DNA from: Thermococcus sp.
Lineage (GTDB): Archaea; Methanobacteriota_B; Thermococci; Thermococcales; Thermococcaceae
Reading direction: 5' to 3'
Length of the DNA stretch: 36,236 bases
Assembly (NCBI RefSeq): GCF_015523185.1
Contig: NZ_WAKV01000017.1
Span: 1 to 36,236 of the forward strand
Shown piece after piece: positions 19,762 to 21,459 of this stretch. The number at the start of each line of letters is the position of its first letter. The first letter of the stretch is position 1. Below the pieces are notes generated by a model. The model saw nothing but the letters and a program-made list of their open reading frames with translations. It did no database searches and was not told the DNA's origin. The translations under genes and the position numbers were made by a program.

Positions 19762-20316
19762 ATGCCGATGCTAACCTTGGCTCTTTACAACACCTACGAC
19801 GTTAGAAAACTCCACGAGGCCCACATCAGGGCCATAGCCCGCTCCGCGCCCATAGCATATGCCTACGGTTTTCACCTCGCCCTCGTGGGGTTTCCGCTTG
19901 AGGGAAAGCCTAGTGAGGTTGCCGAGGAGGTGAGTGAGTCAACGACGATAGGTGAGGGCGGGAGATACCTTCTCGAGCTCGCCAGAACGAACCGCTTCCA
20001 CCTCCTCGATTTCCCTGGAAAGGGTTTCCCTCCTCAGTTCGGAACCCCCGTTGCAACGACGAGAAGGCCTTTCCCTGAAAAGGAAATAACACCCCTCAAA
20101 CTGGCTGAGAGGGCTCTCAGGGGCGAGCGTTTTCTCCTCCTCATCGGGCTCGGAAGACACGGTCTTCCGAAGGAAACCTTTAAGTTGGCGCGCTATCATA
20201 TGGACGTCACGGGGAAGAGGGTCAGTCTTGAGACATGCACGGCTATAGGTGCGATAGCGGTTAAAATCGCAACGTATATGGAGGCCTTGGCATGGAGGAG
20301 TGGAAGAAGGAGGTAG
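19762..20316 (+). CDS. DUF531-like archaeal protein, possibly SPOUT fold
   Basis: 184 residues. The order ARSAPIAYAYGFHLALVGFP, then LLLIGLGRHGLPKETF, and ETCTAIGAIAVKIATYMEAL near the C-terminus resembles archaeal DUF531 proteins. The last two segments look like the knot region of SPOUT RNA methyltransferases, which suggests SAM and RNA binding (inference). It is predicted leaderless. The 3' end overlaps the signal peptidase start by 25 bp. Confidence 0.65.
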   Translation: MPMLTLALYNTYDVRKLHEAHIRAIARSAPIAYAYGFHLALVGFPLEGKPSEVAEEVSESTTIGEGGRYLLELARTNRFHLLDFPGKGFPPQFGTPVATTRRPFPEKEITPLKLAERALRGERFLLLIGLGRHGLPKETFKLARYHMDVTGKRVSLETCTAIGAIAVKIATYMEALAWRSGRRR

Positions 20317-20789
20317 CTTGGTTTTTGGTGGCTATTGTGGTGGTATTCGGAATCCAGGCCGGCCTTAGAGTGGCCCTTCACACGGATTCGCCTCTGGTTA
20401 TAGTTGTCAGCGGGTCTATGGAGCCGGTCTTTTACCGCGGGGATGTGGTGCTTCTCAAGGGGGTTACAAACCCGAATCAGGTTAAAGTTGGTGACGTCGT
20501 GGTTTACAAGCGTCCCGGTTATGAGTATCCGATAATTCATCGCGTTCGCTACATCTACACCGTTAAGATAGATGGAAAGCCCGAAACGTGCTTCGTAACC
20601 TGGGGGGACAACAACCCGGTTCCCGACCCGCCGTATCCGACCCCTGATGGTCTGCTTGAGGTCCGTCTCCCCGATGGTTACATCTCTGGCTGTGTTCCTG
20701 CCTATGCTGTGGAGGCTAAAGCCGAACTCGTGTTTCCCAAAATAGGTCTCATCCCCCTCTGGGTGAGGGAGGCCCTTAGCCTGGGATGA
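20292..20789 (+). CDS. Signal peptidase I, archaeal/ER (S26B) type
   Basis: 165 residues, probably the housekeeping signal peptidase. One N-terminal membrane segment (about 9-30) precedes VVSGSMEPVFYRGDVVLL with the nucleophile Ser. The catalytic His is in PIIHRVRYI and the acidic region is TWGDNNPVPD. A 30-residue loop rich in Pro follows. ATG 20292 has GGAGG about 8 bases upstream, inside the preceding gene. The stop codon lies within box C of the guide RNA described next. Confidence 0.88.
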   Translation: MEEWKKEVAWFLVAIVVVFGIQAGLRVALHTDSPLVIVVSGSMEPVFYRGDVVLLKGVTNPNQVKVGDVVVYKRPGYEYPIIHRVRYIYTVKIDGKPETCFVTWGDNNPVPDPPYPTPDGLLEVRLPDGYISGCVPAYAVEAKAELVFPKIGLIPLWVREALSLG

Positions 20790-20836
20790 TGTGAGGGTAG
20801 GTGGCTGAGTCGTGATGAGCTAATCGGCCCCTGACC
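20784..20836 (+). ncRNA. C/D box guide sRNA (2'-O-methylation guide), overlapping a coding 3' end
   Basis: All four boxes are present with canonical archaeal spacing. Box C is ATGATGT (20786-20792; last base differs from RTGATGA), then a 12-base guide. Box D' is CTGA (20805-20808), a 3-base spacer follows, box C' is GTGATGA (20812-20818), then a second 12-base guide and box D CTGA (20831-20834). GG and CC flank the ends as a short terminal stem. The guides are GAGGGTAGGTGG and GCTAATCGGCCC. By the fifth-base rule each points to a C in targets CCACCUACCCUC and GGGCCGAUUAGC. Targets were not identified. Box C contains part of the signal peptidase stop codon, so the RNA is probably processed from that transcript. 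Confidence 0.82.
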
Positions 20837-20916: not shown

Positions 20917-21459
20917 ATGGACGCGAGAAGCTTTCACAGGGACAACCTTTCGGGCAACGGTAAAATCGAGGTCATCACGAAGGTCCTCTTCACCAGGGAA
21001 AACCCTTGGCTTACACGCCCGGAGTGGCCGGGGTTTCTAGAGAGATAGCCAAAAACTGGATAAGGCCTTTGAATACACCAACAGGGGCAACACCGTTGCG
21101 GTGATAAGCGACGGAACCCGCGTGCTGAGTCTCAGCGACATCGGCCCCCTTGGAGCTCTCCCTGTGATGGAGGGCAAGGCGTTGGTCTTCAAGGCCTTCG
21201 GTGGCGTCGACGCCTTCCCCCTTGTTCTAGCTGAGAAAGACCCATAGGGGCCATTGATGTGGTAAAGGTCGTCTCGCCTTCCTTCAGCCGGATGAACCCC
21301 AAGGATATTGCATCACCAAAGTTCTTCTACCTCCTTGAAAGACCCTCTAGAATCCTCGTTACGGCGAGTCCTATCGCCTTGACGAGAGCTCCAACGAGCG
21401 ATGACATTTATCTGTCAAAGGTTGGTTTTGAAATTAAAAAGTTCGACGTGAGAGTTTAA
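20917..21459 (+). pseudogene. Decayed malate oxidoreductase (malic enzyme), N-terminal remnant
   Basis: Conserved malic enzyme segments appear in order but in changing frames: NGKIEVITKV from ATG 20917, LAYTPGVAG and REIAKN from about 21006, then [32 protein letters not shown] and GGVDAFP from about 21062. VVKVVSPSFSRMNPKDIASP and FFYLLER follow from about 21250. Three frameshifts separate them, with stops in the original frame (for example TAG near 21057 and TAG at 21245). After LLER the NAD-binding domain is missing; about 37 residues unlike malic enzyme follow to a stop at 21459. The remnant keeps a GGTGG ribosome binding site. As I recall, the T. kodakarensis malic enzyme gene lies close to serA and ketopantoate reductase, which would make this decay in place. 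Confidence 0.78.

Follow-up and report, generated by a model that had tools for sequence, protein, structure and literature searches.

The window analysed here, a stretch of 36,236 nucleotides from a Thermococcus sp. contig (NZ_WAKV01000017.1), contains an already catalogued Thermococcales C/D box guide RNA, sR36, in a known and ordinary arrangement at the end of a signal peptidase gene. The family, the boxes and the complementarity to rRNA were established by computation. We consider it about 95% probable that this RNA is a double guide addressing two cytidines of 16S rRNA, that it forms part of the signal peptidase transcript, and that it matures under the protection of the proteins bound to its boxes.

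A cmscan search matched positions 20782–20836 of the plus strand to the full length of the Rfam model sR36 (RF01124; model positions 1–55 of 55) with 77.8 bits (E = 2.4e-17). This score exceeds the gathering score of 55 bits that defines membership, and the match is the sole Rfam hit within the whole window. Membership in the sR36 family is as certain as sequence allows. The locus is composed of the following features:

20782–20836, plus strand: C/D box sRNA sR36 (RF01124), full-length model match by cmscan; the ends are the model ends.
20786–20792, plus strand: box C, AUGAUGU (DNA ATGATGT), read directly; the identical 7-mer occurs in 61 of 71 loci.
20787–20789, plus strand: stop codon TGA of the signal peptidase I gene (ORF 20292–20789), at box C positions 2–4.
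20793–20804, plus strand: D' guide GAGGGTAGGTGG (RNA GAGGGUAGGUGG), read directly; predicted target 16S UAACCUACCCUC.
20805–20808, plus strand: box D', CUGA (DNA CTGA), read directly.
20809–20811, plus strand: D'–C' spacer of 3 nt, GUC (DNA GTC), read directly.
20812–20818, plus strand: box C', GUGAUGA (DNA GTGATGA), read directly.
20819–20830, plus strand: D guide GCTAATCGGCCC (RNA GCUAAUCGGCCC), read directly; predicted target 16S CGGCCGAUUAGG.
20831–20834, plus strand: box D, CUGA (DNA CTGA), read directly.
20292–20789, plus strand: archaeal signal peptidase I gene (TIGR02228, Pfam S26).
19762–20316, plus strand: DUF531 gene (PF04407, E = 5.9e-75), overlapping the start of the signal peptidase gene.

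Boxes C, D', C' and D follow one another in the order of archaeal C/D box sRNAs, with guides of about 12 nt, and direct reading bears out the four boxes, the two 12-nt guides and the 3-nt spacer described in an earlier note on this DNA, which had been made from the letters alone. In the Rfam alignment, the boxes and guides of the window copy are near-identical to the sR36 consensus. The two share the full-length match, the boxes, the guide cores and the spacer length, and differ only by point changes, chiefly in the spacer and at the guide ends. Single-strand folding of the region gave a z-score of −1.22, which is uninformative, as expected for an RNA type defined by its protein-bound boxes.

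The family is present in 72 of 94 Thermococcales genomes, covering all six genera, and in 0 of 14 control genomes. For a comparison of loci, 71 copies were fetched with their flanks; across them the guide cores are near-invariant. Box C reads ATGATGT in 61 copies, ATGAAGA or ATGAGGA in eight (all from genus g3), ATGATGC in one and ATAATGG in one. The earlier note had remarked that box C ends in T instead of A. As a reading this is correct, and the Rfam consensus has 'a' at this position, but it is no oddity: as 61 of the 71 copies carry the T, it is a family trait and the common Thermococcus state. The essential U–G–A and G–C contacts of a C/D k-turn do not involve the final base of box C. The ATAATGG variant (L060, genome G049) has the stop codon TAA instead of TGA and would weaken the k-turn; since its assembly is incomplete, an error in the sequence or a copy in decay is possible. 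A subgroup within the genus Thermococcus has a longer D'–C' segment (L062, L064–L072, L074, L075, L081–L084, L086 and L089–L092); here D' is mostly CCGA and C' is CGATGAGGA or CGATGATGA, replacing CTGA and GTGATGA.

Neither a 16S nor a 23S gene was detectable in the window's own assembly, and the targets were for this reason read from relatives, using the rRNAs of ten of them with the 16S plus 23S of G020 as the reference. The rRNA complementarity that the earlier note had proposed as a check was found for both guides, in 16S rRNA. The D' guide forms a 10-bp Watson–Crick core with 16S UAACCUACCCUC, the longest in the 16S and 23S of G020, with a mismatch at position 2 from box D' and a G–U pair at position 1. 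The D guide forms a core of equal length with 16S CGGCCGAUUAGG of G020 through guide positions 2–11 from box D. Both cores include the fifth base upstream of the D-type box, which is paired with a 16S C in the relatives, as in C/D sRNA targets. By MAFFT alignment, the cytidine predicted to be modified through the D' guide (paired with 20800) corresponds to E. coli C132, and that predicted for the D guide (paired with 20826) to E. coli position 241. Candidate 23S targets were weaker than the 16S sites and were rejected.

Each guide match alone is modest, since 5 of 300 shuffled D' guides and 10 of 300 shuffled D guides equalled the real core. The assignment draws its strength from the combination: a single rRNA holds both predicted sites, 117 nt from each other in G020, and the guides are conserved along with their sites. 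A pattern of the paired 16S sites was found in 65 of the 94 genomes, while a reversed-pattern control gave no match in any of the 94. Copies from genus g4 have GAAGGGTAGGTTG as the guide; aligned by hand, it pairs one base nearer to D' and addresses the same site and the same target C. One study predicted about half of 489 archaeal sRNAs to be double guides, a class it defined by two targets no more than about 100 nt apart (PMC4644070). A model of the Pyrococcus abyssi 30S subunit (3.2 Å) lists no 2'-O-methyl group at the corresponding cytidines (approximately C117 and C238 in Pyrococcus), and methylation at both therefore remains a prediction. The 16S targets of sR36 are likely on this evidence. 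Together with the Rfam assignment and the conservation in 72 of 94 genomes, the 10-bp complementarity to the 16S rRNA of relatives bears out the call of a C/D box 2'-O-methylation guide.

The upstream ORF (20292–20789) encodes archaeal signal peptidase I, with 132.5 bits to TIGR02228 (cut-off 51.85); its score against Pfam S26, 22.5 bits, falls just below the cut-off of 22.9. The DUF531 gene is the conserved upstream neighbour and adjoins the signal peptidase gene in relatives. According to the earlier note, box C includes part of the signal peptidase stop codon; the overlap is real, but box C holds the whole TGA rather than a part of it. The arrangement recurs widely: in 68 of the 71 loci the signal peptidase gene immediately precedes the RNA on its own strand, and in 53 of the 71 its stop codon occupies box C positions 2–4 (52 TGA, one TAA). 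At the remaining 15 same-strand loci the stop lies 5–15 bases upstream of box C, with 15 bases in G024; one of these distances, 7 bases at L008, follows from placing the RNA by the strict pattern. One of the three loci outside the 68 (L078) is cut by the contig end.

Such an overlap is common among archaea. According to a 2017 survey as summarised in PMC7994747, 25% of archaeal C/D sRNA genes hold the stop codon of the upstream gene, and in almost half of these the stop lies in box C. The sR36 locus shares with the stop-containing genes described there (Tripp et al., 2017, in PMC7994747) the 3' overlap, the stop in box C and the lack of an evident promoter of its own; against the part of the survey given in that source we found no difference, and the locus appears as a typical instance. 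The description in PMC7994747 covers every striking feature of the locus.

No TATA-like hexamer was found at 20681–20790, a weak test that agrees with the earlier statement that no separate promoter is evident. A circular-RNA table for T. kodakarensis lists nothing where sR36 lies in G024, taken as that species; the table is silent on linear sR36, since it covers only sRNAs that gave circular reads. Most archaeal C/D sRNA genes lack a promoter of their own, and archaeal C/D sRNAs are described as maturing from longer transcripts and as having stop codons inside box C (PMC7994747). In S. acidocaldarius their maturation did not require particular flanking sequence (PMC7994747). The same source describes the influence of 3' overlaps on a reporter as neutral or slightly negative. 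From the family and this literature we infer RNP assembly, methylation and maturation of sR36. In this genome sR36 is most likely part of the signal peptidase transcript, from which it would be released as a mature sRNA because box-bound proteins protect it while the flanking RNA is trimmed. Its probable partners in the RNP are L7Ae, Nop5 and fibrillarin, and the particle would direct 2'-O-methylation at two cytidines lying close together in the 5' domain of 16S rRNA.

Two other explanations were weighed. That the boxes are a chance or decayed resemblance at the end of a coding region, yielding no RNA product, is hardly credible: although a k-turn that binds L7Ae within a transcript is not necessarily a mature sRNA, the window holds the four-box architecture a single time and none of 200 dinucleotide shuffles produced it, the match to Rfam sR36 reaches 77.8 bits, and the RNA is kept across six genera, including copies outside the coding overlap. 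More elaborate is the proposal that the overlap is a regulatory device, in which excision of sR36 or L7Ae binding at the mRNA end would tie guide supply to signal peptidase; we regard this as improbable. The absence of an evident promoter speaks for it, as do the same-strand signal peptidase gene upstream in 68 of 71 loci and the stop within box C in 53. Against it, G021 has an intact sR36 (L018) about 2.6 kb downstream of its 23S gene with no adjoining signal peptidase, whose gene lies elsewhere in that genome, and in G002 (L061) sR36 lies on the strand opposite to the signal peptidase gene, just past its stop codon.

Also against coupling, 12 genomes, all largely complete, retain the DUF531 and signal peptidase genes but show no full sR36, even with laxer filters; no sR36 was found in the sequence following their signal peptidase stop, and one of them (G001) has a single weak partial match. 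DUF531 is moreover retained equally, which suggests general synteny. The claim that guide output is linked to signal peptidase expression is therefore unsupported as a general property, and regulatory coupling of this kind is unlikely to be general. Very improbable, too, is the specific form in which L7Ae, at a box C lying over the stop codon, sets the stability or termination of signal peptidase mRNA, with one transcript matured into both products in most Thermococcales. Co-transcription of sR36 with signal peptidase in this genome, as in the preferred reading, is plausible.

Two further elements were observed. One is a second conserved C/D-box-like RNA of the form GATGATGA..CCCAAGCCCT..CTGA..GTGATGA..AGCGGTCACCACTGA, often opposite to and downstream of sR36:

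L010, 710–765: second C/D-box-like RNA; also downstream of sR36 in 24 related loci (minus strand).
G000, the window's own genome, another contig (C24), 12736–12786, minus strand: second C/D-box-like RNA.

A pattern search found it in 41 of 94 genomes. It stays below Rfam gathering (best match sR44, 33.8 of 45 bits), and its D guide can pair with 16S near position 494 over 11 bp (10 Watson–Crick pairs and one G–U). In many genomes its D' and C' boxes show changes similar to those of the sR36 subgroup with the longer segment, which suggests a parallel change of the internal k-loop. The other element, at 20917–21342 of the window downstream of sR36, is the remnant of a malic-enzyme-like gene in four fragments with shifted frames, covering residues 1–144 of a 428-aa relative in L018; it is either a decayed pseudogene or an assembly error.

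The earlier note had correctly called a 53-base guide RNA from raw sequence, which validates its author's eye; for the C/D sRNA class, this copy opens no new question. Because of G021, G002 and the 12 genomes without a full sR36, the linkage between sR36 and signal peptidase appears old and common yet dispensable in both directions. In our view it reflects conserved synteny, together with a route that evolution could take easily because box C contains UGA. Guide RNA and host gene have parted in both directions here, which makes this a clean comparative case and suggests that the overlap is tolerated, not required.
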